From: Hericium rajendrae
Taxonomy: Eukaryota; Basidiomycota; Agaricomycetes; Russulales; Hericiaceae
Reading direction: 5' to 3'
Length of the DNA: 64,000 nt
Assembly (NCBI GenBank): GCA_033439255.1
Contig: CM065879.1
Location: 3,292,501 to 3,356,500, forward strand
Below the pieces are notes generated by a model. It made no database searches. It was not told where the DNA came from and saw only the letters and a list, made by a program, of their open reading frames with translations. The first letter of the stretch is position 1. The number at the start of each line of letters is the position of its first letter. The position numbers and the translations under genes were made by a program. Below, in pieces: positions 4,566 through 64,000 of this stretch.

Positions 4566-4731
4566 AGTCAAAGAAAAAGTTAGGTCAGACCTGGAGTTGA
4601 ACCTACAAACTCGTCAGATGAGTGATCTTGCAATTAGATAAGCTGACTGCCAAATGGGGGTAGTTACCGTTGAGCATGTCATTTTCAATAGGAAAACCCG
4701 GTACAGAGTAAACGATTCTAAGGAATCATAA

Positions 4732-12448: not shown

Positions 12449-12659
12449 AACTCACTGCAGATGGAACATGGGCATGTCCAGTATAATCTTGCAATCAATG
12501 TGGCCAACATGGTTGCAATACCATACTAAAGAAAGGACTGAAGGCAGAGAGTGCAACTTAAATGAATGCTGAGATGACATAAGCTTAGCATAGCCACCAG
12601 ACCTTTAACGGCCAGTAAAGGTTTGCAGTCAGTCATATGATCAATTCTCAATCTAGAAC

Positions 12660-17339: not shown

Positions 17340-17835
17340 TAACTCAGTCACCATCTAGAACATTGCCCGAGTCCTTCAATCTGCTATGGTGTCACATCCA
17401 CCATAATGACTCAGTGAAACCGTAGAAATTGATGTCAGAGAATTGGTTATAGAGATTGGCATAGCTAGGGAATCATACCCTAGTATGGTATTGGTATGAC
17501 CGGAGATGACATAGCTCTGTTGCACTGGATGTTTCAGTCTGGTAAGAGCATACCTGGGAAGTGGTAATGGACATTGCAATCACTAGAGGACAATAATCAG
17601 ACCATGTACGATTTCAGATTCAAATGATAGGATAGTGTCAACTGTCAGGTCCAAGGGAGGTGTATATCATCATTTGCATCATAAGCCAGAATGGAGGTCC
17701 TTTCAATAACAGGGTGAATAATCACAGATGACATTTGATCCATCAAAATGACAAGACAACATGTGAGGTACAGGTACATGCAGTGACAGAATTGCATAAT
17801 GCAAGCTGGGCTCCCCTGCAACTTCCTTATCCCCC
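17340..17835. other. No feature recognised
   Basis: Between the MITE and the F-box relic I see only CpG-poor unique sequence. A minus-strand ORF overlaps it at 17,645-17,953, but it has no motif I recognise. It may be the decayed 3' flank of the F-box relic. Confidence 0.3.
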
Positions 17836-18957: not shown

Positions 18958-19799
18958 AACATCACTAATGACATGAAGTGATTATTTATGTGCAATTTGA
19001 TGAGGTTACACATGAACGATGCAGACCATGTTGGGACAAAGTAATGTAGCATCATTATGCAGAGCGAAGGTGCTTGCTCTTCAAAGAGGTCTGCAGGAAG
19101 GATACCCATATGGCCGCTCCATAACTCATCAGGAAGGTTGACAACTTTCTGATTGACCTGACAATTTCTAACTCTACTGACAGCTCCTGACTGACCTGAT
19201 CCACCTGAAAGCAATCTTAACAAGCAAATACCTGATCAAACTTTTACATTCAAGTAAAGACATTTATTGTCAGATATACTTGGGGGAAGAGGGCCGATGC
19301 TCTGCACGGCAATATGATTCCTTTTGAATTGTTCTAACTTTGTAGTGTTATTCTCACAGAATTAATAAGATAATAGAGAATTGAATATACTAGTATTATA
19401 ATGCTGCAAAGATCTCCATCTTCAAAGTATATTGTTTTACACTTATCTCTTATTTTTAAACTTTGTTCATCTGAAAAATGTGTAAGTGGTACATAGCTCT
19501 ATGAAGTCTACATAGATTTCATAGTTCCATAGCACTGCCCTTTTCTCTATAGCCAGCATAGCTAAAGGGGAATGCTATATAGTGCTATGAAGCTCAAGGG
19601 AGATGCTATGGAGTGCTATCATAGCTATGAGAGCTGACTATGCAGCTATCATAGTATGTCTATCTATCAAGGCTATCAGATCTATGCTATTGACATATGC
19701 TATACTGAATAGATAGACTTAATTCATCTATGCAAGATATAAAAGCTATCAAAACTATATATATTCTTAGTTGACTATAAAGCCTTATCAGCTTATAAA

Positions 19800-20290
19800 A
19801 GTGACTAGTCAAGATTAATTCAATTTATCACAAAATAAATATAATTTTATTTGTTATTTGAACAAATTTATATTGCATTGACCAACTAATACTACATCAC
19901 AATAACTACTATATATAATGCTACAAGATACAATATAATATTAACAAACATAACATTAACATAAACTAGACCTTACCAAAAAAAATCAAAATATAAACTA
20001 ATAAACCAACCTTAGAAGGCTTACATCATAAAATAAGAAGCCATAACAAACAAAGAAAGCGAAAATGTAATCTATAAGATAAGAACATTAAGCATTAGTC
20101 AACAAAGACAGAAAAGAGATGACTTACCAAATGCTAGAGAATATGAAATAAAAATGACGAGCGAGAAACAACAGACAATGAGCAAGAAACGAGACAACGA
20201 GCAAGAAATAACTTACAATGAGCAAGACACAAGAGACGATGAGCGAGAGATGTTAGACGATGAGCGAGAGACGACAGACGAGAGATGATG
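19800..20290. other. AT-rich left interior of element D
   Basis: AT-rich sequence to about 20,130, followed by a GAGCGAGA/ACGAGCAAG-type imperfect tandem repeat (20,155-20,285) with period near 20-30 bp. No convincing gene. The ORF at 20,134-20,412 (minus) is a by-product of this repeat. Confidence 0.5.
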
Positions 20291-22000
20291 GGGGTTGGAG
20301 AGAGAGAGAGGACGCGCGTCGTGCGAGGCTTATATAGGTGAGCGCGGGTTTGCCCGGCGGAGCCACAAATGTGGCTGCCGGGGCCCGGCCCGAGAGCTGC
20401 CGCGCACAGCATCAGAGGCTAAGTCCCAGATGCTGCTAACTTCATTTCATTTCTCAGTAGCTTACAGTACATTACCTAGACATGGATCTGATACAATCAC
20501 ATTGTACCAACGAAAGCTAGCAGTACACGTTTTTTCCGATTTTAGCTGATTTTATATGATTTACTACGTTCGAAAATGTTCAAACTCGCGTGTGGCTGAA
20601 GAACCGAAGGCGTCGCTCGACTTGTGTCCCGCATTTACCTCTTGTTACATCCTTCCCTTCGTGCCTCGTTGCACTCTCTTCGCTCGAACAACCCCCTTTC
20701 TCCTCCATTCGAAGCTGGAAGGGTCTTGTAGGAGTCAGAGGGGCCTAAGGTGAGTCTCTAAGGCTTTAATTTCCATTGTATCTACTAATCTCGAGAGTCT
20801 TGCTCGTTATCGAGCGAGACTCTCGTTCTTGCATGCTCTTCGACACTCCCCGCCCGTGTGCCATTCGACACCCTACTCCGCCTCCCACGCACCGCCCGCG
20901 CCTGTCTCTCTCCCCGTGCCCGCGCCTTCGACAGCCCACGCCCACGCCTTCGATAGCCCACTCCCGCGCCGCCGACACGTCAATCAGCGACCCCCCGCCT
21001 GTTTGCCACAGCCCGCGGGTGCTCGGGCATCCCGACACGTCACCCACGCGCGGTTTCGACGGGCTCCGTCCCGTGCACGCAGCCGCGACAACGCACGGGG
21101 ATCCCGCCGGCTCGCCATCGGCCAACGCCACGCATACGCACTCCCAACACACCCACACACGCGCGTATCCCCCACCCACACGTCCCCGCACTCCCAACAA
21201 CCGTGTGAACGGCCTCAAGAGCCTGCTCATGTCCCGTGGATGGCCAGCAAGGCCAACGTCGAGTCTCGTTGCCATGGCAATGAGACTCGATAACGCGTCG
21301 TGCGGCCACGTACTGCGTCGCTTGCTCCCGCATGCGAACACGCGCGCGCACGGCCCCGCACGACAGCGCCAGCACAGCGCCACGCCCATCTACGCCAGCG
21401 GACGGTGCGACAGGCTCGCGCCAGCACACGCAGACCAGCAGCGTACGCACGCCGGCGTATGCATGCACACGCCTGCGTTGCGCAGAGCCTCAGTCCGCCC
21501 AGCTCGGACCTAACGGCCCACGCACGGCCGCAGTGCGTGCATGAGCCAAGCAGCGCGCGTGACCCGCACATCTCGCACATGGCCCCAGCAGCGCATGCAC
21601 GCCTGCCGGTGCACGCCGCCGACTGCCGCTCACCCGTTCACGCCGCCGACTACGTACGCATGCTATAGACTGCGCACGCACGGCCGCGTCTGTCCTCGTC
21701 AGTGCGCGCCTGTTTGTGCATGCCTTCATATGCACCGGACTGCGCTCGCATTCCACGTACGATGCGCGCACGACACCCAGTGCCCTCGCCTGCGATGTCA
21801 CCGTCGCTGCGCCGCCTCTCCCCGTACACCCCGCGCGCCGTCTGCTGTGACTCGCGCCCCGCGCCAGCACGTACAAGGTGGACACATGTAACGTGTCCGC
21901 CGCCGTTTCGACTTGCGTACGCGGGGCTGTCAGCTCCGCGCACAGGTCGTGTCGGCGACAGTGTGGGCGAGTCCGCGATGACGACGATTTCACATATGCC
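20290..22000. other. CpG-rich core of element D
   Basis: The stretch is strikingly rich in CG dinucleotides in a window otherwise depleted of them. Long ORFs occur in almost every frame on both strands (for example plus 20,776-21,513 and minus 20,766-21,389). This is what high GC without stop codons produces, and none shows a domain. A TATATAGG motif occurs near 20,331. The block has a decayed relative at 1-1450. It may be a promoter-like or structured-RNA segment; function is unknown. Confidence 0.7.
20793..20824 (+). repeat. Conserved 32-nt hairpin, CpG-rich copy
   Basis: GAGAGTCTTGCTCG pairs with CGAGCGAGACTCTC around a short TTAT loop. It matches the hairpin at 344-375 in size and position. 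Confidence 0.7.
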
Positions 22001-22789
22001 AGTACCGAACCACTTTGTATGTAGTATATTGTAGTAGTTCAATGTTGTGTAATTACCTCAATGTCGTAATACATTACAATGCTAGAAACTATAGACTCCT
22101 ACAGACTGTATAGCAACCTGAGGTTCCATAGCAGCCTTATGAAGCTGTATATTGAACATAGCATCCATAGCTTACATAGAAGAAGACTCAAACATATAAC
22201 TTACATAGCAGACATAGTAGTGTGCTATAGCTATGTAGTACTACATAGCTATCACCCATAGCTATGGCAGCTATGATAGCTCTCATACTTCTGTATAGTT
22301 GTGCAGCCCAACTACATAGCAGCCATAGCACTATAAAAGCAAGCATAGCATTGGCTGGTAGCTATGTAGATTTCACATTTTTGAGATGTTACCAGCAAGA
22401 GTTGAACTAATGACAAAATGATGGTCACGTGCAACAACGAGCCCGGTCAGGCTTGCTGTTGCATGTGACTTCTCAAAAATTGTGTTTACATTTATGAAGT
22501 ACATAAGTGTGGCCTTTGAAAGTCTGTCAACTGTTGTATGTTGCCTAGATTGATTTTATTTTTGCCTTCTAGGGGGGTCTAAATCAGTAATTTGGCTATA
22601 TCTCTGTCAATTCTCTAGCTATAAACATAAACTCAAGTGTTTCTGAGTAGTACTATCAATGGCCATATTAACACGATTTTTACTGATTTTTTACACTACT
22701 CAGTATGTGCCTATTCTCAGATGATTTGATGATTTGCCCCTAGACTTGAATGATTTTTTCGATTTTTTCCTGCTTATAAATTGCTTATG

Positions 22790-22879
22790 TAATCCGCAGC
22801 ACGGGCAAAATGACGTACTCCCGTCCCCCTCATGATGTCATGGGACGGGAGTATGTCATTTTGCCCGTGCTGCGGATTA
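22790..22879. repeat. 90-bp CpG-bearing hairpin inside element E copy 1
   Basis: TAATCCGCAGCACGGGCAAA is mirrored by TTTGCCCGTGCTGCGGATTA. The stem is about 38 bp. The same hairpin of equal length lies at 61,888-61,977 in copy 2, so it was present before element E spread. Confidence 0.85.
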
Positions 22880-23955
22880 TGTAAAACCTTGAAAATAGTC
22901 AAATAGGAGGTTTTGTGATAATTTGAGTGTACCTCCTTAAAGACTGGAGATATCACCGGTCCCTTGATTGCGTCAGAAAGATCTCTATTATGCCTTTTCA
23001 ACGACGCTAGGTACACTACAATTGGATGAGTCAATAAAAAGATATGGCCTCAACAAGTTTGCCCCTACCTCTAATACCAACCCTTCAGTAATCGCTACTG
23101 CGTTTTCTCAATACTTACCCGATCGTCTTGTACAATATACCTTTGGAAAGGTATGAATCAGATCTGTCCAACGGTATCTTTAGCGTGTAAATAGCACCAC
23201 TCGTTGCGCCGCTATGATGCAATCACTATGATCTTCTCCTCAAAGGTATCTTTTGAAGTGATTTGCTCATATCTCAGTCATTTCTGAACCTATTCTCATG
23301 GAAAAAAATGTTCTGAAGAGGTAGAATTTGCCTTTATCATGTTATCATACATCCCACTCACTTACATCAATAACAAGGTGCAGAATATCCTATTAAATAT
23401 GTTTATCTGTTATTTCAACAAGTTTGCACTTTCTTATACTAAAATCTTTCAGTTCTAATAAGACTAGCATTGATTTACATATGCATATAGTTTAACACTA
23501 ATTAAATTTGATTTAGTAGACTGATATCTCTAAGAAACATTTAAAATCACAAAAATGACAATTGTCAGAATCGAACCTACAACCTTACTTTAAGATGTGA
23601 GAAATTATTACTATAAAAGGCATTACATTGGCTGGGTGTCATCTTTTTTGAGTTGAAAAGCGGGTTAGAGTAAACGATTCTAAGGAATCGTAATAAGTTT
23701 TTAATCTCTAACTAATAGATATAACAAAATCTCTGATATCTGAAATTTTCTAAATCTGAGAGTGTCTGATCTGAGAATTTTTTCAAATCTGGAGGTCAAA
23801 TATCTGAAAATTATCTGCAACTGTCTGAGAGCATCTGATAATGTCTGACACTATCTGATCCATCTGATCTGTTTGACAGCAGGTCAATCAGATACTGTCA
23901 GATGCTATCAGATTGCTCTCAGGTCTAGCAGAAAGTTGTCAACCTTCCTAATGCT

Positions 23956-24131: not shown

Positions 24132-24446
24132 TTACGATTCCTTAGAATCGTTTACTCTATACCGGGTTTTCCTATCGAAAACGACACCAAAATGATCACT
24201 ACCCCCATTTGGCAGTCAGCTTATCTAATTGCAAGATCACTGATCTGATGAGTTTGCAGGTTCAACTCCAGGTCTGGCCGGACTTTTATTTACATTTGAT
24301 TTAATGTAACTTGATCAGTTCTCAACCAATTCACCTGTTCTCAAATGCATCTGGATCTACTCATTTATTGCTTTCTGGTAGTATTTTTTGCATCCTGATC
24401 TGTGCAGAACTCACAGAGTGCAATGAGTTCCTACATTTCCCCCTGC

Positions 24447-24869
24447 TGTCAAGACTCGGTCGTAGACAGCAGAGAACCACCCAAGTCACCAGTGATGATG
24501 AGAGCGAGAGAACAGAGAGCGACTAGCAGCGCAGTGACCTGTATTGGAGGTATAGTACGGTACAGACGAAATGGACAATCTAGGGAAATAGGTGAGCAAC
24601 AGGGAGCCTATAAGTACTGGGATGACAATGGGAAAAGAACAATGGACACCATAACGGGTCGAACAATAGAGTGAGAACAATGGTGGCCAAAAGGAGAACA
24701 ATGGGAGGGAGAACAATAGGATGTCCCAAAGGGGAACAAGGGCATAGGTGAAGGATAGCCCTAGGTCATGTGAGGAAGTGAACATGTGATGGGGCTGCTA
24801 GAGCACATGATCGATGCGATGCCTTGATGGCAGAGAAGAAGGCAGAGAGAAATGGAGCAATCCGTGACA
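24447..24869. repeat. Solo LTR, 423 bp, with 5-bp target duplication
   Basis: It starts TGTCAAGACTCGG and ends ATCCGTGACA. The five bases CCTGC flank both sides (24,442-24,446 and 24,870-24,874). Removing it restores the R2 unit, compared with the undisturbed unit near 10,545. It does not match the copia LTR in this window. CpG is partly retained, suggesting a moderately young insertion reduced by LTR-LTR recombination. Confidence 0.88.
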
Positions 24870-25499
24870 CCTGCAATACTTGAACTTAAGCTACCTTAGT
24901 CAATTCTCAACCGATTTACTCGTTCTCAAGTGCACCTAAATCTACTCATTTATAGCTTTTCAGCCATTCTTCATGCATCTGGATTGGTTAAGAACTTGCA
25001 GAATGCAAAGCATTTCTTTGGTTTCTCCTCTAAAATGTTTGAATCTTAGCTAACTTGGCCAATTCTCCACCGATCTACTCGTTCTCAAGTGCATCTAAAT
25101 CTACTTATTTATCGCTTTCTAGCCATTCCTCATGCATCCAGAGCCATCAAGAACTCGCAGAATGCGAAGCATTTCTTTGTTTTTCTCCCTAAAATGTTTG
25201 AATCCTAGCTAACTTGGTCAATTCTTCACCGATTTACTCGTTCTCAAGTGTATCTGGATCTATTAAGAAGCTGGTCTTCAAAACAATTTACTACTTACAA
25301 AAAGATAGATCCAGTAAAAAGATATACAGCAAACAAAGTTAGATCATTACGATTCCTTAGAATCATTTACCTGTATCAGGTTTTCCTATCGAAAATGACA
25401 TGCTCAACGGTAACTACCCCCATTTGGCAGTCAGCTTATCTAATTGCAAGATCACTCATCTGACGAGTTTGTAGGTTCAACTCCAGGTCTGACCTAACT

Positions 25500-26230
25500 T
25501 TTTCTTTGACTGTAACTTGATCAGTTCTTGACTGATTCACTCATTCTAAAATGCATCAGAATCTACTCATTCATCATGTTCTAGTCACTTTTTTTGCATC
25601 TTGATCTGTGCAAAACTTGTAGAACACAAAGCACTCCTGTATTTTCCCCCTTGTATGATTCATCTCTGGCCAGCCCAGTCAGTTCTTGACCGATTGACTC
25701 ATTCTCAAGTGCATCTGAATCTAATTATTCATCGCTTTCTGGTCATATTTTATGTGTTATGATTCATGCAGAACTCACAGAATGCGAACCATTTCTGTAT
25801 TTTCCCCCTAGTATACTTTATTCTCAGCTACCTCAGTCAGTTCTTGACCGATTAACTCATTCTCAAGTGCATATAAATCTACTCATTTCTCGCTTTCTAG
25901 TCATATTTTATGCATTTTGATTTGTACAGAACTTGTAGAACATGAAGCACTTCTGTATTTTCCCCCCTAGTTTGCTTGATCTGCAGCTATCTCAATCAGG
26001 TCTTAGCCGATTCACTCGTTCTCAAGTGAATCAAAATCTACTCAATCATAGCTTTCAAATGATATTTTATGCGTCTTGATCGGTGCAAAACTTGCAGAAC
26101 GCAAAGCACTCCTATATTGTTCCCTCTAGTATGCTTGATCTCTAGCTATCTCAGTCAGTTCTTGATGGATTTACTTGTTCTCAAGTGTATTAGAATCTAC
26201 TAATTTATAGCATTCTTTGATATAATATAT
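25500..26230 (+). repeat. R2 tandem array of G3
   Basis: Units of ~160 bp carry GACCGATTCACTCATTCTCA-like, CGCTTTCTAGTCATATTTTA and TGTATTTTCCCCCTAGTATG phrases. It is the inverse of 3860-4565. Confidence 0.75.
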
Positions 26231-26760
26231 ACTGAACAGACTTGTTATATCACAAGGAGACAACAAGACAACACAATAATTGATAGAGTTGGCTTAAAGT
26301 CTCAGTTCAGTCATGTGATCTTACCTCTCAATGGCTGTTGAGAGGTCATGAGAATTGATTACATAATCAAAACTCGGTAGTGAAGTGCAAGTTCTCCTAA
26401 GTTTGCAAGTTCAATTCCAGTTCATGCCAGATTTTTTTGATTTTTAATTTTAATTATTATTGCTAATACTAAAAATGATATAGTGAATGAGCAATTAGTA
26501 TTAGTACAATGTCTACTCTTATAGTATACTATAAATACAAGAATGCTTATAAATCTATGGTTTTGAAGACTGATTACATAATCAAAACTCAGTGCTAAAG
26601 TGTGAGAGTAGTAAAGTTTTGCTTCCTCATGAGCTTTACATTCTGCATGCTTGTTATGTTGGCTGCAAAGCTCGACAGGTATCTCCAAGTCTTCCGCTGA
26701 GTGGTCGATGGTTTGGAACCAGGAGGTACTTGACCTGGCGGCTCATCTTGGTCATCTTGT
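26230..26760 (+). repeat. Body segment with B-box-like module
   Basis: Inverse copy of 3285-3860. It contains CAAGTTCAATTCCAG (about 26,406-26,420), another B-box-like tRNA relic, and a 190-bp block also found at 27,940-28,150. No gene is called. Confidence 0.6.
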
Positions 26761-28329
26761 TACAATTTCTTAGAATTGTTTACTCTATACTGCCTTTTCA
26801 TAGTGAAAATGACATGCAAACAATGACTATGCCCATTAGGCAGTTGGCTTATATAATCACACATCTTCAATCTAACGAGTTTGCAGGTTCAATTCCAGTT
26901 CTGGCCGAACTTTTTCTTTTACACTTTGTTTACTGTAACTTGGTCAGTTCTTGACCAATTCACTCATTCTTAAATGCATCAGAATCTGATCATTTATTGC
27001 TTTCTAGTCATATTTTATGCATCTTGATCTATGCAGAACTTGCAGAATGTAAAGCATTCCTGTATTTTTTTCCTAGGATGCTTGATTCTCAGCTAGCTCA
27101 GTCAGTTCTTGACCGATTTACTTGTTCTCAAGTGCATTAGAATCTACTCATTCATCACTTTCTAGCTGTATTTTATGTGTGTTTATCCATGCAGAACTTG
27201 TAGAATGCGAAGCACTTCTGTATTTCTCCTCCTAGTATGCTTGATCCTTAGTTATCTCAGTTCATTCTTCACTGATTCACTTGTTGTCATATGAATCAGA
27301 TGCTACTCATTTATAGCTTTCGAACCATATTTTGTGCATTTTGATCCATGCAGAACTCATAGAACACGAAGCACTTCTGTATTTTTCCTGCTAGTATGCT
27401 TGATCCTTAGCTATTTCAGTCAATTCTCCACCGATTCACTTGTTCTCAAGTGGATCAGATGCTACTCATTCATCGCTTTCTAATCATATTTTATGTGTTA
27501 TAATCTATGTAGAACTCACACAAAAACTCGGTTTTGTGATCTATGTTGCTCAATTATTTTTAGTATACATTAAGCATACTCAATAAGTATATATACTATA
27601 TAGCAATATACTATGTGATCAAATCATTTAATGACTGTTGAAAGATTCAGTCTTAGTATGAGCTCCAATGCAGCAGTGCTTCACTATGGTATGGTCATAC
27701 CATGGTGAAGGTGGTCACGTGTCGTTCATCATGGTACGGCTGTACCATGGTTGTGATCACGTGATGATTACATAATCAAAACTCAGTGGTTCTCTTGAGT
27801 TTGCAAGTTCAATTCCAGTTCATGCTAGACTTTTTTGATATTTTTTAATACTGAAAATAATATAATCAATGAGCAATTAGCATTAGTACAATGTCTACTC
27901 TTATAGTATATTATAAGTACAGAAATGCCTAGAAATGCCTAGAAATCTATAATTTTGAAGACTGATTATATAATCAAAATTTCAGTTTTGAAGCACCAGT
28001 AGTAAAGTCTTACTTCTTCATGAGCTTTACATCCTGCATGCTTGTCATGTTGGCTGCAAGGCTCAACGGGTATCTCCAAGTCATCCGCTGAGTGGTTGAC
28101 AGTTTGGAATCAGGAGGTACTCGATCCAGCAGCTCATCTTGGTCGTCTTGTATGTATCTCACTTGCTGAGCTGGCAGACTAATTTCTTTATAGGTCTCTG
28201 AATCTTACACAAACCAGTATGTATTAGAGCTTGTCAAAACCACATTGACAGCTGCTTCCAGTTCATGTCTTCTGAGCTGTGATAGGCTATCTGCCTGGTG
28301 AGCAATCAACCAATCATCATTATCTGAAT

Positions 28330-28985
28330 GATCTTAAGATAAGTCTCTCAGTTCTTTACCGATTCACTCATTCTAAATTGGGCTGGAATGTACTAATTAA
28401 TCACTTTTCAGACATGCTACATAGACCCCATTCTATTCAGAACTCGAAAATCAAAACTCGAAACTGAGATCTCTCCCCTAAAATCTTGATCTTGAGGTAA
28501 GTCTAGCAGTTCTTGATCAATTTAATTGTTCTAAAATGCACTGGAATGTACTGATTAATCGCTTTTCAGAAATGCTACATAGACCACATGCCATCCAGAA
28601 CTCGAAAATCAAAACTCGAAACTGAGATCTCCCCCCCAAGATCTTGACCTTGAGATAAGTCTAGCAATTCACCACCGATTCAATTGTTCTAAAATGTGCT
28701 GGAATGTACTAATTAATCACTTTCCAAACATGCTACATAGACCCCATTCCATCCAAAACTTGAAAATCAAAACTCGAAACTGAGATCTCTCCCCCAAGAT
28801 CTTGACCTTGAGATAAGTCTAGCAGTTCTTGACCAATTTAATTGTTCTAAAATGCACTGGAATGTACTGATTAATTGCTTTTCAGACATGCTACATAGGC
28901 CTCAGTCCATCCAGAACTCAAAAATCAAAACTCAAAATTGAGATCTTCCTTGCAAGATCTTGACCTTGAGGTAGCTAGAGAATTT
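28330..28985 (+). repeat. R1 tandem array of G3
   Basis: Four units are marked by GCTACATAGACC or GCTACATAGGCC near 28,427, 28,575, 28,733 and 28,891 (148-158 bp apart). It is the inverse of 2540-3115. Confidence 0.8.
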
Positions 28986-29238
28986 TTAGAGAGTTATAAT
29001 CAATCTGATCAGTAAGACTTGACATCATTTATGCACTGTTTATAAATATAACTAACAATGAAAAAGGAATCGTATTGCTGTGCAAAGCATTGGCCCTCTT
29101 CCACCAAGTGAAAGGTTAGAAACTCCCTTATCAGTGATATCAACAAATCTGGTGTGTATTCTTCGAAATCTGCAGGTATTGTAACACCTCCATCTGGATT
29201 GTAGATCAACTGTAGACATCAACAAACCTTTCCATCTA

Positions 29239-32214: not shown

Positions 32215-33152
32215 TTGCTTGTGCAGGCCATCATGTTCAATGCTGCAAAGGTCCTCAAGCTCCTCTTCCAAAGGAGCTGGATTGAAATTTACAGAAAGAA
32301 TGGGCTGATGAATCCAGGACCAGCAGGATCAGGCATTGTCAAGTCTGCAAAGCAAGCAGCAGGCTCGAGGTCCAAGGGAACAAGGTCCAAAGCCATGAAG
32401 TCTCTGACTCGTCATGCTCAAAACCTTTATCATAATTTGGTAATCTGTACCTTGCATCCTAGCTTTGTAGATTTGTCCCCAGCATAGTTTGCACTTGGCC
32501 ATGAGGTATGAGATTCTTCCTTTTATCGTCGATGTAGAATTCAGTGTGTACCTAGATTTTGCTGTAGGACACTCACTTTCCTCTCTACACATTTGTCTCC
32601 CTCAAGACACAGCAGGCAAAAGAATGGCTGCTAGCATTCCAGGAATCAGACACAATCATGAGTGCAATTCTTGGGGTCATATACCCAGAATTATACGAGG
32701 CTGGCATATGGATGTTAGAATGGCTCAGAGATATGCTGGAGTTTCGTGAAGTGATGTGCCACTGGACATCTGCATTTAGTGGTGTCTCGATCATCTCTAA
32801 CCAGGCCACCATGCCACATAGAGATATGAGAGGTCGCACCAAATGGCCAGATCTCTTGGCCACGATCGGCACATATCCTAATGCAGAACTACACCTCCAG
32901 AATCTCAACCTGAGGTTTGCATACAGGTCTGAGACACTAGCTGTGATCTGCTCAAAAATGGTAATCCATGCAGTCCCAGAATGTGGACCGGACAGGGTGT
33001 GTTATGCATTTTGGATGAGAGATGCAGTGCACGAGTGTATGATCATCAAAGCACCAGACTGGTGCAATGACAGTCAGTTCAACATCACATCTGAACCCGA
33101 CATAATGAATGAGTCATCACAGACTCAGGCATCATTACCTTGTTCATTGTAA
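32215..33152 (+). pseudogene. TET/JBP-like 2-oxoglutarate/Fe(II) dioxygenase, probably inactivated
   Basis: The last exon (about 32,576-33,152) carries a complete double-stranded beta-helix core. SIISNQATMPHRDMRGRTKW has the HxD iron ligands (His codon 32,817, Asp codon 32,823). TYPNAELHLQNLNLRFAYRS follows. VIHAVPECGPDRVCYAFWMR has the distal His (codon 32,967) and the 2-oxoglutarate-binding Arg (codon 32,994), and it ends in RDAVHE. Family members oxidise 5-methylpyrimidines in DNA. Upstream, an exon from about 32,215 is basic and reads through to 32,517 except for one TAG at 32,485. The intron at 32,518-32,575 (GTATGA...CTGTAG) brings the two exons into frame. The single stop could be C-to-T from CAG. 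The KDZ transposase lies just downstream on the same strand, the association known for fungal TET/JBP genes. All ligands are intact, so an unseen splice form could still be active. Confidence 0.75.
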
Positions 33153-43744: not shown

Positions 43745-44035
43745 CGCTCTAGCGAAGTTTTCACATCATCGATATCTGCCCATCCACTTGTCCGATCTCG
43801 CCGATCTTTCGCCAACGACGTCGCCTCTGCGTACCTTCGTTGCCCACAAGTTTTCGCGCCGATCCGCTCAGCCATCCGGTCTTAACATCGTTGAGTTACT
43901 CTGCATCTATCTCTTATATCTCTATCCCCTCCGCTCCCAAAAAGCGTCGACCCTTCATTTTATCGACTTCTACCTTCGACGATCAAGCCCGCTACACTAT
44001 AGTGCCTTGCTGGTCTTCCCCGGTCCGACTCAGAT

Positions 44036-47000
44036 ATGTCGAACCCATTTTCTCACCTCATGCAAATTTCGAGGCTTTCGTCCTCGAACTATGTTCAGTG
44101 GAGTGAGGAGATCACCGCGGTCTTGAGGTTGAGGGGTCTATGGGGTATTGTGAGTGGTACTGAGCCCAAGCCGGATGTGAAGGAGACGGATAAGGTTGCC
44201 GATTGGTTGGAGAAGCACGATAAGGCTCTTGGTGCGCTGTTTCTTGCTATTGCCCCGGACCAGCGCATCCATATCCAGGCTTGCAAGTCCGATGCTAAGC
44301 TTATCTGGACCACCCTTCGTTCTGTTCACCTCTCGCAGCGTCCCGGTGCTCGATTCAATGCCTATGACGATCTCTTCTCCATCCGCAAGGGTGAGGAGGA
44401 GTCTCTCGCATCTCTGATGAACCGCATCGATGAGGCCATTCTCCGCGTTCAGAACCTGCGCCCGGACACCTTCGACATCACCAAGCTCGACGAGGAGCTC
44501 GTTTGCATGACCATGATCCGTTCTCTGCCCTCCGACTACGCCTCCTTCTCCTCTTCCTTGCTTCTACTCGAGAAGATGGATCGTTCGTCGCTTCAGGCAG
44601 CATTCCGCAACGAGGAGATCAATCGGATGCATCGATCCGGCGACGTTTCAGGCAAGGATGGTGCCTCTGCACTTCGGACTTTCTCCAAGCCTCCGCGGAC
44701 CGGTGGCAAGCCCTCTGGTACGCCCTCAGGCCCGCGTGTGACGTGCACATACTGCAAGAGAGGTGGTCATAGCGAAGAACAGTGTCATCGGAAGGCCTGG
44801 GACGAGAAGCAGAAGGCAATGGCATCAGGATCTACCTTTGCAGCTCCCGCGGTTGCTCATTCTGCCTCCGTCGTTCAAGAGTTTGCTGGAAGTGCAAGTC
44901 CTTCACTCTCACTCTCTCTCGCAGCCTCTGCCTCACCCTCCTTCGTTGCTGACGATTCCTGGAATGCAGACACTGGGGCCACGTCTCATATGACCTCCCA
45001 TCGCCATTGGTTCGTCGACTACACTCCGCACGTTGTTCCCGTTCGTCTCGCAGACAACAAGGTCGTCTATGCTGCAGGAGTAGGCTCGGTTCAGTTTGTG
45101 CCAGTGGTCGGAGGAAAGGAGCAGCAGCCAGTCATCTTTACTCGAGTCCTTCATGTCCCTGATCTCCGCAATAATCTCCTCTCAGTCCTCTTCCTCACTC
45201 GAGCCAAGGGCTTCACTGTTGTGATCAAAGGCGACTGTATGCGATTCGAGCGCGCTGGTGAGCTGTTCTTCACTGCTAAGGTCAACGGCTCGAACTCTGC
45301 CTTCCTCGAGGGTCATACTATCCACTCGATCGCCTTTGCATGCCTTGCATCGACTCTACCTCTCGATATGTCCCTCTGGCATCGTCGACTCTGTCACCAT
45401 CACGTTGCTGGTGTCCAACGCCTCATTCGTGAAGACCTCGTTACTGGCCTCGATCTCCAGTCGTCTGCAACACCGGATCCGATCTGTGTCGCTTGTCTCG
45501 CAGGCAAGATGCATGCAGATCCCTTTCCGAGCTCTCTATCTCGTGCGGACTCGCCTTTGCAGCTTATTCACACAGATCTTCATGGCCCTCTCGTTGTTCA
45601 GTCCATCGGAGGTTACAAGTACTGGATCAGCTTCATTGACGACTACTCCCGCTTTCGCACCATCTATCTGCTTCGCACGAAGGATGGGGCCTTTGCTGCA
45701 TTCAAGGCATTCAAAGCTTATGCTGAGAATCACTTTGACTCGCAGATCAAGGGCTTGCGAGATGATAAGGGGGGTGAGTACATGTCGAACGAGTTCATTG
45801 CTTTTACCACTGCTGCAGGCATCACTCGTCAACATACCGTGCGGAACAGGCCTCAGCAAAATGGAGTAGCTGAGCGTGCAAACCGTACGATGGATGAGGG
45901 GGTTACCACGATGCTGGCGGAGTCTGGGCTACCAAAGACATTCTGGGGTGAGTGTCTGGCGGCTTATGTGCACGTTTGGAATCGTGTGGGTACCTCTGCC
46001 GTTGAGAATGCCACTCCCTATCAGCTCTGGCATGGCGCGAAGCCTGATGTCTCGTGTCTGCGAGTGTGGGGATGTGCGGCCTATGTGCATGTGCAGAAGT
46101 ACAAAAGGAGGTCCCTGGATCCCCATATGGAGAAGTGCATCTTTATCGGGTATCCGGAGGGGTACAAGAGTTGGAAGTTTTATAATCCACAGACTCGCAA
46201 GTCTGTAATCAGTGAGTGTGCCACTTTCGATGAGCGTGACTTCCCTAGTCGTTCTAGGAACTCCCCATCGACGTCTACATCCTCTTCTTCTTCGCGTTTG
46301 CTTGCTTCCTCGCCTGATGCTCAGGATTCTGCTCCGATGATTGTACCGGTTCTGGAGGGGGATGGTGACGCTCCCTCTTCTCAGCCGTCAGTCAGAAGAC
46401 AGCCTGCTGCTGAAGAACAGGAGCACAACGTTGAACCGGCACTCTCTCCTCTGCCCGCAGCCCCTGCTGCTCTGCTGCCTGCTGCAGCCCCTGCTGTTCA
46501 GCCTGCTCGTCGGGGTCGCTCTGTGACTCGAGGGACCGCGCCTGCCTTGCCAGAGCGTCGAGGAACTCGAGAGCGCAAGCAACCTGGCGAGTGGTGGAAG
46601 ACTCCCAAGACCGATCCGAAGCCCTCTGGGTCCAAGATCAAGTCCGCGGCCAAGTCTTCTACCAAGGTCCAAGCTCCTCCGCCCTCCATTCATGAAGCTC
46701 GGGAGCCTACACCTGCAGTGTCGTCATCTGGATCTGGCTCGGACGTTGAGGACGTCGAGCAGACTTCAGCTGATGCTTCAGAGCTCGAGGAACAGGAGAG
46801 AGACAGCCCGGATGAGCTTGATCTTCTCTCCGAAGGTGCGATGCTCTCTTCTGCTGATTCCGAGCCCATGTCCTTTCGCGAGGCAATGCAACGCCCCGAT
46901 GCACAGGACTGGCTTCTCGCATGTCAGGAGGAGATGGAGGCCCACAAGCGCAATGGCACTTGGTCTGTAGGTCCGCTTCCACCTGGTCGCACTGCGATTG

Positions 47001-48436
47001 GGTCCCGGTGGGTCTTCAAGATCAAGCGGAACCCGGACGGCTCTATTGAGCGATACAAGGCTCGATTGGTTGCCAAGGGGTTCAGCCAGCGTCCAGGCAT
47101 GGATTTCAACGAGACGTTCGCTCCCACATGCAAGTTTGCCTCTATTCGCACTGTCCTTGCTCTTGCAGCCGTCGAGGACCTCTCCCTTCGCTCTTTCGAC
47201 ATCTCCCATGCCTTCATCAACGGTGATCTCGATGCAGAGGTCTACATGAAGCAGCCGGAGGGTTTTGTAGAGGGCGATCCAGGTGATGTGTCTGTGCTGA
47301 TGAAGTCCATCTATGGGTTGAAGCAGGCCGCGCTGTTGTGGAAGAAGAAGTTGACGAAGATCCTTGTGCACAAGATGGGCTTCACCTGCATTCACTCGGA
47401 CAACAGCATCTACGTGTTCCAGAAGGGTGATGTGCGAGTCATAGTGCCTGTCTTTGTGGACGATGGGACCATGGCATCCAACTCGGAGAAGCTTCTTGAC
47501 GAGCTCTTGGAGGAGTTAGCCTCTCACTTCAAGCTTTGGGATTTGGGTGCGACTTCATTTCTTCTCGGTGTTGCAGTGACCCGGGATCGCTCTACTCGTC
47601 GTCTCTTCCTCTCTCAGCACCAGTACATCCTCAATATGCTCGAGCGCTACAATCACAACGATTGCAAGCCTCTCTCGACACCGATGGAGCCTGGACTGCA
47701 GCTTTCGAAGGCCATGAGTCCGCAGACCCCGCAGGAGCGCGAGGAGATGGAGAGCATCCCCTACAGTGCAGTTGGTTCTCTCCTCTATCTCGCAGGTGGC
47801 ACGCGCCCAGACATTGCTTATGCTGTCGGGGTCCTCTGCCGCTTCACCTCCAATCCTGGCATGGCACATTGGAAGGCCGTTCAGCACTTGCTCAAGTATC
47901 TCAAGGGCACAGTTGACTTGAAGCTTGCTTATGGTCCGAGTCCCTCTGGGGCTTCGCCTGAGCTCTTCTCTGCCTATTCTGATGCTGATCATACAGGCAA
48001 CCCGGACAATGGTCGTTCCACATCTGGTTATGTCCTCCGCATCGGTACTGGTGCTGTCAGCTGGTGTTCGAGGCTTCAGACAATTGTTGCCACCTCTACT
48101 ACCGAGGCTGAGTACATTGCTGCCTTCGATGCTGGTCAGGAGGTCTGCTGGATGCGCAACCTGCTTTCGGAGTTTGGCTATGATGTCCTGTCAAGTCCTT
48201 CGACTCTGCACATGGACAATCAGTCTGCCATTGCCTCTTCGAAGCACCCGGAGCACCATGGTCGGATGAAGCATATGCAGCTTCAGTTCTACTGGTTGAG
48301 GGACCAGGTAGACTCTGGAGTGTTGCATCCTGTGTTCCTTGGGACTGCGGACATGCCTGCGGATGCACTGACGAAGGCCCTGGCGAGGGATCGCGTTGTT
48401 AAGTGCCGGGAGATGTTTGGATTGGTTGAAGGTTAG
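44036..48436 (+). CDS. Ty1/copia Gag-Pol polyprotein, intact 1466 codons
   Basis: One uninterrupted frame encodes all retrotransposon functions. The N-terminal Gag region (about 15-200) is of UBN2 type and has YVQWSEEITAVLRLRGLW. A CCHC knuckle CTYCKRGGHSEEQC spans 237-250. The protease motif is WNADTGATSHMT (Asp312). The GAG-pre-integrase/HHCC region has LWHRRLCHHHV and CVACLAGK (447-490). The integrase triad is Asp514 (IHTDLHGP), Asp577 (RDDKGGEY) and Glu613 (NGVAERANRT), with 35 residues between the last two. RT runs from GSRWVFKIKRNPDGSIERYK (about 987), with FVDDG near 1139. RNase H has YSDADHTGNPDNGRSTSGY (about 1313) and DNQSAIASSKHPEHHGRMKH (about 1393). The ATG at 44,036 is chosen because Gag homology starts there. 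GC-rich coding with many CpG, unlike the flanks, marks it as young. It may still be translatable, though the 5' LTR is truncated. Confidence 0.97.
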   Translation: MSNPFSHLMQISRLSSSNYVQWSEEITAVLRLRGLWGIVSGTEPKPDVKETDKVADWLEKHDKALGALFLAIAPDQRIHIQACKSDAKLIWTTLRSVHLSQRPGARFNAYDDLFSIRKGEEESLASLMNRIDEAILRVQNLRPDTFDITKLDEELVCMTMIRSLPSDYASFSSSLLLLEKMDRSSLQAAFRNEEINRMHRSGDVSGKDGASALRTFSKPPRTGGKPSGTPSGPRVTCTYCKRGGHSEEQCHRKAWDEKQKAMASGSTFAAPAVAHSASVVQEFAGSASPSLSLSLAASASPSFVADDSWNADTGATSHMTSHRHWFVDYTPHVVPVRLADNKVVYAAGVGSVQFVPVVGGKEQQPVIFTRVLHVPDLRNNLLSVLFLTRAKGFTVVIKGDCMRFERAGELFFTAKVNGSNSAFLEGHTIHSIAFACLASTLPLDMSLWHRRLCHHHVAGVQRLIREDLVTGLDLQSSATPDPICVACLAGKMHADPFPSSLSRADSPLQLIHTDLHGPLVVQSIGGYKYWISFIDDYSRFRTIYLLRTKDGAFAAFKAFKAYAENHFDSQIKGLRDDKGGEYMSNEFIAFTTAAGITRQHTVRNRPQQNGVAERANRTMDEGVTTMLAESGLPKTFWGECLAAYVHVWNRVGTSAVENATPYQLWHGAKPDVSCLRVWGCAAYVHVQKYKRRSLDPHMEKCIFIGYPEGYKSWKFYNPQTRKSVISECATFDERDFPSRSRNSPSTSTSSSSSRLLASSPDAQDSAPMIVPVLEGDGDAPSSQPSVRRQPAAEEQEHNVEPALSPLPAAPAALLPAAAPAVQPARRGRSVTRGTAPALPERRGTRERKQPGEWWKTPKTDPKPSGSKIKSAAKSSTKVQAPPPSIHEAREPTPAVSSSGSGSDVEDVEQTSADASELEEQERDSPDELDLLSEGAMLSSADSEPMSFREAMQRPDAQDWLLACQEEMEAHKRNGTWSVGPLPPGRTAIGSRWVFKIKRNPDGSIERYKARLVAKGFSQRPGMDFNETFAPTCKFASIRTVLALAAVEDLSLRSFDISHAFINGDLDAEVYMKQPEGFVEGDPGDVSVLMKSIYGLKQAALLWKKKLTKILVHKMGFTCIHSDNSIYVFQKGDVRVIVPVFVDDGTMASNSEKLLDELLEELASHFKLWDLGATSFLLGVAVTRDRSTRRLFLSQHQYILNMLERYNHNDCKPLSTPMEPGLQLSKAMSPQTPQEREEMESIPYSAVGSLLYLAGGTRPDIAYAVGVLCRFTSNPGMAHWKAVQHLLKYLKGTVDLKLAYGPSPSGASPELFSAYSDADHTGNPDNGRSTSGYVLRIGTGAVSWCSRLQTIVATSTTEAEYIAAFDAGQEVCWMRNLLSEFGYDVLSSPSTLHMDNQSAIASSKHPEHHGRMKHMQLQFYWLRDQVDSGVLHPVFLGTADMPADALTKALARDRVVKCREMFGLVEG

Positions 48437-59589: not shown

Positions 59590-61191
59590 ATATGATTTGC
59601 CATCTTCAGATGTACTTGGTCTCCTTGCCGGAAACGCTTCCCAAGCCGTCGATGCTGTCAGTGGATTTCCGCGACTTTTCATATGATGCAGAATGGGCAG
59701 AGGATGAGGGCATAGAACATGCCATTAACCGGGAGCTAGAAGTTTGTCTTGGGCCCAAACAATATCACCGGGACACATTTAAAATCACAGAACGGGGACC
59801 GGGTATTGAAGCCCTCGCGCAGGTGCTCGAAGGATGTCTGGAACAGTTTTCGGACTCGGTGATCATGCAGAAATGGGTTTTCGACTCTATTAGAGCAGCT
59901 GAGAATGTGTACACAGAAGCAGGCTTAGCACTGGTATGTCTCGTAATATCCCTTGGTCAATTTGTATATCCCTGGGTTGACAATAGTATGTTAGCCATCC
60001 CTTGTGTCTGTCTCTCTCACGAAGTCCACTAGCAGCGGCAAGAAGCACAAAGCAAACAGTGCGCCCGCGAAGGTCAAGCGGCCTGACACAAAGTTACTTG
60101 GTGACTTCGAAGACGATAGATATGAAGACCTACCTGAACCACCAAAGCGTAATAGCGGTGCACAACCACATCCCTTGCTATCAAAAGTAAGCTGCCATTA
60201 CAAGCTCCAAGTACCCGAAGGCAACAAGGACAGCCCTGGTAATAAAGATGAGGATGGCAGCAATAACAACAATGGGGACCACGGCGACGGTGACAACAGC
60301 CCCGATGCATGTGCCGAAGGAGGTTTACAGGACTGTGAGCCGGGCAAGAAAGGCAAAAGTAGTCGCAAAAGCAAAGAGAAGGACAAAGCGAGCTCAGATT
60401 GGTGGTGCTATATCGCCAGTCGTAGTTGTGGGACAACCTGGGTAAATTCAAACCTTCAGCGCATTTTCAAGCATGCCGTATCATGCGAGTACATACCTTT
60501 CGATTTGCGACGTCAAGTACGCGAAGTGCTAGCCAAGAAAGCTGCTGGGAATGCTGTTGCGAAAGGCAGTAACCTATGGCCCATTCACTACGGGTCAGAC
60601 AGTGACAACGTGGATGCACGCCCAGCTAAACCAGTCAAGACTGTAGTTGGGCAGCCCTCCGCCTCGAAGGGCATCAAGGTATCTGACAATTTACAGGGTT
60701 TTGTCAGCGAAGGGAAGAAACAGATTAAACAGAAAGCGGACCATCATCTGATGCTGTACCTCGTATGCAATGGTGTCGCCATCCGTACTGTCCAGTCTCG
60801 ACACCTGCTGGCATTTGCTCGCACTCTCGCGTCATGGTATACCTCACCATCAAAAACCACCATCCTTGATCGAATGATCCCGGAGGAGGCTGCACGAGTC
60901 TCGGTGGAGACAGGCCACTACCTTCAAGGTTGTCAGAACCTGACTATATCATATGATGGCGGGAAGATCAGACATCCACGCAGTGTCTACACAATTAACA
61001 CAACCACCCCCGAACGGCGCAGCTATCTGATGGATCTTGTTGATGTCTCGTGCGTAAGTTACGATTCCTTAGAATTACGATTCCTTAGAATCGTTTACTC
61101 TAACCCGCTTTTCAACTCAAAAAAGATGACACCCAGCCAATGTAATGCCTTTTATAGTAATAATTTCTCACATCTTAAAGTAAAGTTGTAG
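59590..61191 (+). CDS. DUF659/hAT-like protein, 5' exons, interrupted by element E
   Basis: A first exon (about 59,590-59,933: FRDFSYDAEWAEDEGIEHAI ... AENVYTEAGLAL) ends at GTATGT, consistent with an intron. The next exon covers 60,004-61,051. It has a BED-finger-like start (WWCYIASRSCGTTWVNSNLQ then RIFKHAVSCEYIP). A DUF659-type segment follows (LMLYLVCNGVAIRTVQSRHL; PSKTTILDRMIPEEAARVSV; NLTISYDGGKIRHPRSVYTI; SYLMDLVDVSC). The exon ends at a good donor, GTAAGT (61,052-61,057), so the last in-frame residues to 61,191 are intron plus transposon. No stop interrupts about 350 codons, and CpG is retained, so the gene is young or was under constraint until recently. Downstream exons are not found after the transposon. 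hAT-derived proteins of this kind act as transposases or domesticated DNA-binding factors. Confidence 0.65.
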
Positions 61192-62563
61192 GTTCGATTC
61201 TAGCAATTGTCATTTTTGTGATTTTAAATATTTCTTAGAGATATCAGTCTACTAAATAAATTCAATTAGTGTTAAACTATATGCATATGTAAATCAATGC
61301 TAGTCTTATTAGGACTGAAAGGTTTTAGTATAAGAAAGTGCAAACTTGTTGAGATAACAGATAAACATATTTAATAGGATATTCTGCACCTCGTCATTGA
61401 TGTAAGTTAGTATGGTCTATGATAATATGATAAAGGCAGATGTTACCTAGTCAGAACATTTTTTTTCATGAGAATAGGTTCAGAAATGACTGAGATATGA
61501 GCAGATCACTTCAAAAGATACCTTTGAGGAGAAGATCATAGTGATTGCATCGTAGCGGAGCAATGAGTGGTGCTATTTACACGCTAAAGATACCATTGGA
61601 AAGGTCTGATTCGTATCTTTCCAACGGCATATTATACAAGATGATCGGATATGTATTGAGAAAACGCGGTAGCGATTACTGAAGGGTTGGTATTAGAGGT
61701 AGGGGCAAACTTGTTGAGGCCATATCTTTTTATTGACTCATCCAATTGTAATGTACCTAGCATCATTTGAAAGGTATAATAAAGGGCTTTCTGACTCAAT
61801 AAAGGGACCGGCGATATCTTCAGTACTTAAGGAGGTACACTCGAATTATCACAAAACCTCCTATTTGACTATTTTCAAGGTTTTACATAATCCGCAGCAC
61901 GGGCAAAATGACATACTCCCATCCCATGACATCATGAGGGGGATGGGAGTACGTCATTTTGCCCGTGCTGCGGATTACATAAGCGATTTATAAGCAGGAA
62001 AAAATCGAAAAAATCATTCAAGTCTAGGGGCAAATCATCAAATCATCTGAGAATAGGCACATACTGAGTAGCATAAAAAATCAGTAAAAATCGTGTTAAT
62101 ATGGCCATCAATAGTACTATTCAGAAACACTTGAGTTGATGTTTATAGCTGGAGAATTGACAGAGATATAGCCAACTTACTGATTCAGACCCCTAGAAGG
62201 CAAAAATAAAATCAATCTAGGCAACATACAACAGTTGACAGACTTTCGAAGGCCACACTTATGTACTTCATAAATGTAAACACAATTTTTGAGAAGTCAC
62301 GTGCAACAGCGAGCCTGACCAGGCTCGCTGTTGCACGTGACCATTATTTTGTCATTAGTTCAACTCTTGCTGGTAGCAAAGTTTAAAAATAAGAGATAAG
62401 TGTAAAACAATATACTTTGAAGATAGAGATCTTTGCAGCATTACAATACTAGTATATTCAATTCTCTGTTATCTTATTAATTCTGTGAGAATAACACTAC
62501 AAAGTTAGAACAATTTAAAAGGAATCGTATTGCCGTGCAGAGCATCGGCCCTCTTCCCCCAAG
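61075..62563 (+). mobile_element. 1.49-kb Helitron-like element E, copy 2, uninterrupted
   Basis: It starts TTACGATTCCTTAGAATCGT (hairpin, stem ACGATTC/GAATCGT). A B-box AGGTTCGATTCTAGC lies near 61,190, a 90-bp hairpin at 61,888-61,977, and a CGTGCAACAGCGAGCC/GGCTCGCTGTTGCACG hairpin near 62,300-62,340. It ends GCCGTGCAGAGCATCGGC, a short pyrimidine tract and CAAG. Insertion is between A and T without duplication. The 86-residue ORF at 61,733-61,993 recurs in copy 1, but it runs through the hairpin and is probably fortuitous. Confidence 0.72.
61888..61977. repeat. 90-bp CpG-bearing hairpin inside element E copy 2
   Basis: The same palindrome as 22,790-22,879, with complementary arm changes such as CCCGTCCC versus CCCATCCC. 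No unambiguous target duplication. Confidence 0.85.
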
Positions 62564-62700
62564 TCGTTTACTCTAACCCGCTTTTCAACTCAAAAAAGAT
62601 GACACCCAGCCAATGTAATGCCTTTTATGGTAATAATTTCTCACACCTAAAATATAAAGATAAGGTTGTAGGTTCGATTCCACCATCTGTCATTTGTTTT

Positions 62701-63216
62701 CTCTTTTCTTACTGAGCATGATACAGCTTTCAGTCATGCTTGATTATTTATAACCAAAGCTTGTAGAGAGATGTGTGCATCTGTATCAGTCATGATTGTA
62801 GACTATTGATAGGTAGTTCATGATGAGCGACTCTTTCTGTATGCTTCTTGCTTTTAGGCACATTAGATGAGATATCCTTGGCCTTCAAGTTAGGGCTTAG
62901 CTCGTATGACTAGTCAACTGACTTTTTACATTTACACTCAGTCTCAAGTTTTTCTTGCATGATGATCTGTATGCCATGGTCTTCTTGCACTCTGAATAGC
63001 ATCTATTAAAATGATATAGAGAATATTAGAAAGAAAAAGCAAAGTAAAGCTAGTGACATTGATTTATCTAATGTAATACTATGCGCAATAAATTCAGAGA
63101 ACTAACTATATCGTGGATCTCTGCCCTCTTGTACTTTGCCTTAGTGAAAAATAAAAGAGAAGTCAATAAACTCTGCTATTGTGCCATACAATCATTTCTA
63201 CTGTAGAGTAATGCCA
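62701..63216. other. Unique AT-rich spacer, no gene recognised
   Basis: AT-rich unique sequence downstream of the transposon. It may include the 3' untranslated part of the minus-strand gene that ends at 63,217. No repeat or motif stands out. Confidence 0.4.
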
Positions 63217-64000
63217 CTACTTGTGACGAGTCTTCTTGGATGGCTGACTTGAATTCTCATCTGCCTCCTCATCTATACCCTTCCTCTTTTCCACCTCCTC
63301 TACTACTTTATCAGCACCAATAGTCTTCCACACCTTTATATTTTCTGCAAAGTGAGTCTCTATCCAGGGAGGACTCTGATAGCCATCAAGCTTCTTCCAC
63401 ACTGATTGTGATCCATCTCCAACATAGGGCTGCAGGCTTTCAGGAAGGTCCGCATTGGCATCAAGCCACCACCTGTTCATTTGGTCTTGCATCCTCAGTT
63501 TCTTGGTCCAGAAGGTCTCCAAGTCAGAGCAGAGAGAGAAAAATAATGAAGAAGAGGACATCTTGAGATCAACAGCCTTTAGGAGATCTGGCCTCTTTTC
63601 AATCTGCTCTCTATAATAGATCCAAGCCTGAGCCACCTTTTTGCTGCTCTCAGTAAAGAGTGCCAAGGGATTGAGTGAATTCTCATGACAGCCTTCACTG
63701 AGATAATGCATGATCATCTTTGTAAGAGCAAGTCCATTGATAGATCTGTGGGCTTGAATTGTAGCATCAGGTCGAGATATATTGTTCTTGACAACTGATA
63801 AGCTTGAAGCAAAGATGACAGCATGTGCAGCTGCTAAAAAGATGTGCATCCCTTGAACAGTTTTGATATCAGGATACTCAGCTACAATATACTTAGAGAG
63901 GATAATACAAATCAAATTGTAAGATAGAACTCACCACAAGGAGAGGGATGGTCCAACAGATGAGCCCACCAAGCCATGAAGTCAGCTAGTATAGGACGAA
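63217..64000 (-). CDS. Hypothetical protein, C-terminal exons (gene continues beyond the window)
   Basis: The final exon runs from 63,881 to the stop at 63,217. A 53-nt intron (63,934-63,882, GTGAGT...TTGTAG) joins it in frame to an upstream exon from at least 64,000 to 63,935 (DFMAWWAHLLDHPSPC). No stop interrupts about 240 codons. The protein is mostly helical and polar, with Trp-rich stretches (EQIEKRPDLL, DLETFWTKKL, NRWWLDANADLPE, PWIETHFAENIKVWKTIG). It ends in a charged, nuclear-localisation-like tail (EEVEKRKG ... SKKTRHK). No family recognised. The ATG within the exon (63,915) is likely an artefact because it lies in the intron. It is the best candidate for a live host gene here. Confidence 0.65.

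Follow-up and report, generated by a model that had tools for sequence, protein, structure and literature searches.

Helitrons with TT and CAAG ends and their large RepHel relatives in the genome of Hericium rajendrae

How does a short repeat with sharp ends that leaves no target duplication spread through a genome? The question is raised by a stretch of 64,000 nucleotides from the basidiomycete Hericium rajendrae (contig CM065879.1, positions 3,292,501 to 3,356,500; henceforth the window), which contains two copies of one such element, E1 and E2. The genome searched comprises 46.8 Mb in 19 contigs, the window being C2:3292501-3356500; loci fetched from it carry L numbers. E1 and E2 are very probably non-autonomous Helitrons of a family in which members of the autonomous type measure about 26 kb and encode RepHel, a protein combining DUF6570, a Helitron_like_N Rep domain and a PIF1 helicase. 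The assignment to the Helitrons is based on this protein content and on the lack of a target duplication. All coordinates of features are collected in Table 1. Published families are cited from excerpts of the respective accounts.

The two copies of about 1,490 bp that the original prediction described are real. E1 measures 1,489 bp. E2 measures 1,492 bp once a nested insertion of 2,921 bp and one TT are subtracted, and 1,411 of its positions are identical to E1. The genome contains at least 42 matches to E1 at E 0. At least 27 copies (E1 counted) cover the full element, and at least ten other copies are 98-99% identical to E1; these numbers are lower bounds since the best 40 of 351 candidates were scored. 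The near-identity of the ten other copies speaks for a recent spread of the E1 family. Two long, near-perfect palindromes are located within E1 (61890-61975 and 62297-62340). Folded as DNA they reach -44 and -27 kcal/mol (z -13 and -10), and judging from opposite-strand matches in the genome search they are present in many other copies. The element nested in E2 resembles the PlavakaB pattern, CATCA..TGATG with a duplication of 2-3 bp, as excerpted from PMC12730594.

Removal of E1 or E2 restores the host exactly at A^T and without duplication, as had been claimed, with ungapped flank matches of 99% and 97.5%, respectively. The rejoined flanks of E1 match the 5' module of the family itself across the junction (e.g., over 96 bp). 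A copy of this module had been proposed as the host of E1; the match stands, and the host can now be specified as the 5' tip of an autonomous-type element of the family. The host repeat of E2, a known MITE according to the original prediction, occurs several times within the window. Altogether nine pre-insertion sites were identified, six A^T, two G^T and one T^T, all without duplication or loss. Two of them are window equivalents for elements in L087 and L058 (Table 1). In the genome, 4 of 12 joined flanks gave junction-spanning matches. For L003 (A^T) one place matches across the junction at equal length (200 of 200 bp), for L007 (G^T) 25 places do so, 24 at 202 of 202 bp and one at 203, and for L057 (A^T) five places; these three sites were judged by match lengths, not by aligned letters. 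For L005 (T^T) there are nine matches, each falling short of the query by 12-13 bp. In the match whose letters were read, an indel of 12 bp lies about 42 bp off the junction, and the junction itself is free of gaps. Finally, a 7,122-bp composite element (C4:1814512-1821633) splits a RepHel element at A^T according to the alignment coordinates, which overlap by 3 bp because the element itself begins TTA. In the comparison that gave the window sites 33 joined flanks were examined, some of which began at inner modules of composite elements and are not true pairs. For elements 1 and 7, with AT-rich simple repeats, and for element 17, whose right flank is itself a 5' module, the junction-spanning matches were dismissed as artefacts; self-matches of element 0 were left uncounted.

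The ends are not a peculiarity of the window. A genome search with the ends, as had been suggested, located the 20-bp 5' start 307 times with at most 2 mismatches and the 22-bp 3' end 278 times with at most 3; the reversed control patterns gave 0 in both cases. In the window at least nine 3' ends of CAAG followed by T had been predicted. Nine were found, with T next in 9 of 9 (12 matches at up to 7 mismatches, three of which lack CAAG); two of them, at 14,866 and 1,697, have a common flank, so that the nine are not all independent. Ten Markov control sequences yielded 1-4 matches apiece with the same pattern. Flanking bases were counted in fetched loci, mostly close matches and a subset of the 307 and 278 places. 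T follows the element in 44 of 44 distinct 3' ends. The base preceding it in 52 distinct 5' ends (61 minus nine inner 5' modules of composite elements) is A in 31, G in 12, T in 8 and C in 1. The target can be written as N^T, the T being obligatory; A is favoured and C is rare before the element. Hence the predicted insertion between A and T without duplication is upheld with respect to T and to the missing duplication, but not with respect to A. The strict A^T of Helitron1 does not apply, considering also the G^T and T^T pre-insertion sites. With T ahead of the element in 8 of 52 cases, neither the TT target of Helentrons nor that given for Helitron2, TTTT followed by T or C (PMC5148889, in part), is the rule in this family.

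The termini have a defined structure. The 5' end reads TTACGATTCCTTAGAATCGT and contains a stem of 7 bp. Positions 2-11 of E1 recur as their 10-bp reverse complement, AGGAATCGTA, well inside the 3' end. In the two large elements whose 3' end was read this arm is AGGAATCGT, with 9 bp kept. Thus the terminal inverted repeat is asymmetric, and hairpins are present at either end, the 3' hairpin 14 nt from the terminus, i.e., near the end as in other Helitrons. The inverted repeat had escaped the original prediction, and it points to a Helitron2-like architecture. An alignment of the 3' hairpin from 11 ends (nine from the window and two from large elements) has 98.7% of its cells paired, mostly by G-U variants with two two-sided changes; covariation over these 11 ends does not exceed that of shuffles (67-70 of 500).

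Could these ends simply be those of a canonical Helitron1 in which TC and CTRR have drifted to TT and CAAG, the inverted repeat being incidental? The A before 31 of 52 ends and the 3' hairpin with its short tail would suit such an origin, and HELPO2 from Pleurotus, described with Helitron1-like features, ends CTTG (PMC4289320, in part). On the other side, an asymmetric 10-bp inverted repeat and a 5' hairpin are given as marks of Helitron2 in the excerpted text of PMC5148889. TT and CAAG are the ends of the copies read, which had been chosen by these ends, and also of the large RepHel copies; TC and CTRR were tried as ends and found in none of the copies read. We consider a drifted Helitron1 unlikely, though a serious contender, and adhere to a Helitron with Helitron2-like ends.

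The 5' modules form three diverged families, A, B and C. Between the consensus sequences of these families (39 modules) the terminal ~40 bp, a short GACACC and a block, GTTTGCAGGTTCAAYTCC or TTGTAGGTTCGATTC, are conserved. The block resembles the B box of RNA polymerase III (Pol III) promoters, consensus GGTTCRANTCC. The pattern GGTTCRANYC occurs at 116-127 bp in 27 of 36 modules, and 26 of these 27 are among the 30 modules attributed to family A, B or C; because the modules are related by descent this count is not an independent statistic. The block invites an interpretation of the 5' modules as retroposed, tRNA-derived heads of short interspersed elements (SINEs), with a secondary association with CAAG. 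A tRNA was found neither by ARAGORN in the window nor by Rfam at E up to 5 in two modules, which leaves the B-box-like block as the sole remnant of this interpretation. Moreover, the large RepHel elements begin with the same module at the same base. A SINE origin is therefore very improbable in our estimate, and we regard the module as a Helitron terminus. It is a rather unlikely thought that the ~26-kb multigene Helitron lineage with its at least eight colinear copies keeps the B-box-like block for Pol III/TFIIIC binding in expression or transposition. A literature search returned no paper combining Helitron, TFIIIC and B-box.

What, then, is the autonomous-type partner? The genome has 67 matches to Helitron_like_N (PF14214). 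Eighteen belong to copies that match L089, a stretch upstream of the Rep at C2:3391087. A 35-bp 3' module, derived from two of the 18 Rep copies, occurs at 92 places in the genome. In 13 of the 18 copies it is positioned on the strand of Rep and 5-7 kb behind it; it stands behind 0 of the 48 other Rep rows (49 minus the one with the module, which is the second half of an L089-group copy). Two RepHel copies are alike through CAAG and the adjoining T and unlike beyond. PIF1 follows Rep at 2.4-3.5 kb in 15 of 18 copies; the distances in the remaining three are 4.0, 4.1 and 14.0 kb (compared by hand). At C11:2,085-2,089k the Rep and the PIF1 matches are assigned the same open frame, 2,305 aa in length. 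The fetched portion of the C2 protein contains DUF6570 (E 3.9e-41) and Helitron_like_N (E 1.2e-29). The partner thus encodes a Rep and a PIF1-type helicase. The last 85 aa of RepHel match no Pfam family, and accessory open reading frames (ORFs) together with the RepHel C-terminus gave nothing above cut-off against Pfam and PDB; a weak match to DUF6978 (E 0.0084) was below cut-off. Full-length RepHel copies with the same ends, whose existence the original prediction had made a test, have been located, and its rolling-circle group with a TT start and a CAAG end is supported by large elements with these ends that encode Helitron_like_N and PIF1. Several deep Helitron lineages appear to live in this genome because, of the 20 other Reps with the best scores, 16 are 26-32% identical to the C2 Rep and four have no match to it.

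These proteins bear on two further explanations. Short, numerous elements with an inverted repeat near either end might be miniature derivatives of a cut-and-paste transposon with a DDE transposase. The very ends are devoid of an inverted repeat, the nine sites show no duplication, and the ends are shared with RepHel elements; we judge such a derivation to be extremely improbable. Nothing that would contradict a Helitron, i.e., consistent duplications, shifting ends or an autonomous DDE copy, was met in the loci read: the nine sites lack duplications, the ends are constant, and the large copies encode RepHel. Equally hard to credit is mobilisation by a helicase-free HUH transposon of the Replitron or IS605 kind. 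Single-strand transposition would suit sharp ends without duplication, yet the elements with both common ends encode a PIF1 helicase besides Rep. A RepHel Helitron remains the preferred partner.

The extent of the large element was derived from a pair of markers situated about 1 kb and 8 kb away from one 5' end on contig C3. Both precede the L089 stretch and Rep in constant order and orientation in eight large copies: on C3 (plus and minus strand), C11 (two), C5, C2 and C12 (plus and minus strand). A 5' end of the family is located ~0.95-1.06 kb ahead of the first marker in six of the eight (both on C3, C11 at 2,109k, C5, C2 with E1 subtracted, and C12 plus), and the common 3' end 5-7 kb behind Rep in seven, C5 being the exception. 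From end to end the copies measure ~26.6 kb (C3 plus), ~26.0 kb (C3 minus), ~25.9 kb (C11) and ~25.1 kb (C12 plus). The C2 copy starts in the window at 61,059. E1 is inserted 16 bp inside, and farther along the copy holds a second small element (L057, C2:3367717). E1 and its large host have in common ~145 bp at the 5' and ~55 bp at the 3' terminus; two internal segments of large elements (L089, L092) have no match anywhere in the window. A candidate 5' end at C4:1829314, ~9.6 kb upstream of a Rep, was rejected: it has no similarity to its C2 equivalent, which reads like a retrotransposon.

In the C12 plus copy a second 5' module is situated ~80 bp inside the 5' end (L100, C12:1203760-1203960). 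The two large copies of family A whose 5' tips were read therefore each hold a second 5' module within 100 bp, at 16 and ~80 bp. Self-insertion near the 5' tip of large elements may feed composite elements. An open frame without Pfam match (59995-61191, plus strand) extends into the 5' tip of the window's large Helitron. Where the flanks of the large element are rejoined, the junction reads GTAAGT and resembles a splice donor.

Most likely, the small copies are mobilised in trans by the large RepHel element. By analogy with the Helitron superfamily, we envisage that Rep would nick one strand at ^TTACG next to the 5' hairpin and that the helicase would peel the nicked strand away. Strand transfer would end past the 3' hairpin at CAAG, and the strand would be joined directly 5' of a target T, without target duplication. 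Having retained from the large elements their terminal ~145 bp (5' side) and ~55 bp (3' side), the small ones could be moved by the same machinery, and the family may be active at present. Nine inner 5' modules with a fixed flank mark composites of two 5' ends and one 3' end. For FoHeli elements of Fusarium oxysporum a model has been proposed in which transposition starts at an outer 5' end and stops at the first 3' end (PMC5148889, in excerpt); the composites of the present family would be compatible with it.

Several observations weigh against this interpretation. The assembly contains no head-to-tail CAAG-TTACG junction (up to 3 mismatches) and no trace of circles or tandems. The C2 large copy is damaged, with one stop in the PIF1 match and at least two nested elements. 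Five of the 18 Reps have no 3' end within 7 kb (12.8, 16.3, 16.8 and 28.3 kb, and none). The 3' hairpin by itself is weak (z -1.6; 11 of 200 shuffles are as good). Some paralogues of the E2 and L087 hosts align with gaps of 1-12 bp, the empty sites being based on the ungapped paralogues. Eight of the 12 joined flanks searched in the genome, that of the C2 large copy included, gave no junction-spanning match among the best 40 of 556 candidates. Finally, a duplication of a single T is formally equal to an insertion before T; a comparable ambiguity is noted for FoHeli in the excerpted account (PMC5148889).

How does the family relate to known Helitrons? It looks like a Helitron with Helitron2-like end architecture because it has an asymmetric inverted repeat and hairpins at both ends, a likeness that concerns the ends. 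With canonical Helitron1 it shares RepHel, the missing duplication, the 3' hairpin near the end and the T on the 3' side. It is no canonical Helitron1 because TC, CTRR and a strict A^T are lacking: it has TT and CAAG, the A is not obligatory, and an asymmetric inverted repeat is present (PMC5148889, PMC4289320, both in part). In FoHeli1 and FoHeli2, described as Helitron2-like, the inverted repeat is likewise asymmetric, its 3' arm being set tens of bp inside; each end forms a hairpin, a non-autonomous copy is nested in an autonomous one, and composites combine several 5' ends with a single 3' end. They differ in that they start TCAG and end ATTTT, measure 5-6 kb (another group 9-11 kb) against ~26 kb here, and use the target TNAT, the next base being A according to the text and T according to the legend; FoHeli, too, departs from the Helitron2 target (all from excerpts of PMC5148889). 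HELPO1 and HELPO2 of Pleurotus ostreatus likewise comprise RepHel, non-autonomous copies of 1.5 kb and copies >10 kb, and HELPO2 departs from CTRR with its CTTG. In contrast, HELPO elements start T[C/G], end CTRR or CTTG, insert at A^T and are at most 13.7 kb or 15 kb long, two figures stated in the excerpts of PMC4289320. Helentrons and their non-autonomous HINE/DINE-1 elements resemble the family in their sub-terminal inverted repeats (theirs 38-60 bp from the 3' end), the 3' stem-loop and non-autonomous copies outnumbering their partner; the TT target of Helentrons is different, and an endonuclease domain is described as fused to their RepHel (PMC4067079, in part). Helitron2 is mentioned for Agaricus bisporus in excerpts of PMC12730594.

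Non-canonical fungal Helitrons have been published before, and the present family adds one more of that sort. The excerpted accounts of FoHeli, HELPO and A. bisporus (PMC5148889, PMC4289320, PMC12730594) contain neither the TT/CAAG pair of ends nor a size of ~26 kb. A literature search found no paper combining Helitron, basidiomycete and CAAG; Repbase was outside this search, and the family may be catalogued there.

Table 1. Positions of the features discussed, in window coordinates unless a contig is named.
Feature	Position	Strand	Remarks
First 16 bp of the large autonomous-type Helitron, host of E1	61059-61074	+	Resumes at 62564
Large Helitron, continuation beyond the window to C2:3396774	62564-64000	+	Colinear markers; nested insertions
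ORF of the large Helitron, 237 aa	63217-63930	-	At first colinear marker; no Pfam match
E1, non-autonomous Helitron	61,075-62,563	+	A before (61,074), T after (62,564)
5' arm of asymmetric inverted repeat, TACGATTCCT	61076-61085	+	From element position +2; read directly
5' hairpin, 7-bp stem, 4-nt loop	61077-61094	+	DNA fold -5.8 kcal/mol, z -5.0
3' arm of asymmetric inverted repeat, AGGAATCGTA	62520-62529	+	34 bp from 3' end; read directly
3' hairpin with a tail of 14 nt that ends in CAAG	62532-62549	+	DNA fold -5.7 kcal/mol
B-box-like GGTTCRANYC	61191-61200 and 62671-62680		Also loci L029-L058
E2, second copy of the non-autonomous family of E1	19,279-23,693	-	Carries nested insertion
Element nested in E2	19,468-22,388		Termini CATCTSAAAAATGTG; TT either side
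Empty-site equivalent of the E2 insertion, A^T	17108-17267		160 bp ungapped, 97.5%
Empty-site equivalent for the element in L087, A^T	7771-7888		118 bp ungapped, 100%
Empty-site equivalent for the element in L058, G^T	17230-17346		117 bp ungapped, 99%
Family-C 5' end through to CAAG 3' end	24132-29108	+	Inner 5' ends at 25347, 26760
5' end at 10233 with CAAG 3' ends	10233-14954	+	3' ends at 14507, 14866, 14954
5' end at 4731 with CAAG 3' ends	1609-4731	-	3' ends at 1814, 1697, 1609

Two other frames of the window deserve mention. A TET/JBP dioxygenase domain (PF12851, E 1e-16) is encoded at 32619-33020 on the plus strand. TET/JBP genes are reported as cargo of some fungal Helitrons (PMC12730594, in part). 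The genome has 46 TET/JBP matches, 38 of them above cut-off, and 0 are inside the eight large-element intervals when coordinates are compared by hand. At 44003-48436 (plus strand) an uninterrupted frame of 1,477 aa resembles, by eye, a Copia-type polyprotein.

For the biology of this genome the results tie a large set of orphan repeats to a RepHel partner. TT ... CAAG^T is a further Helitron end pattern, and detectors built on TC and CTRR would miss it. The abundance of the family, its near-identical copies and its clear pre-insertion sites would make it a good system to study the end requirements of a Helitron transposase.

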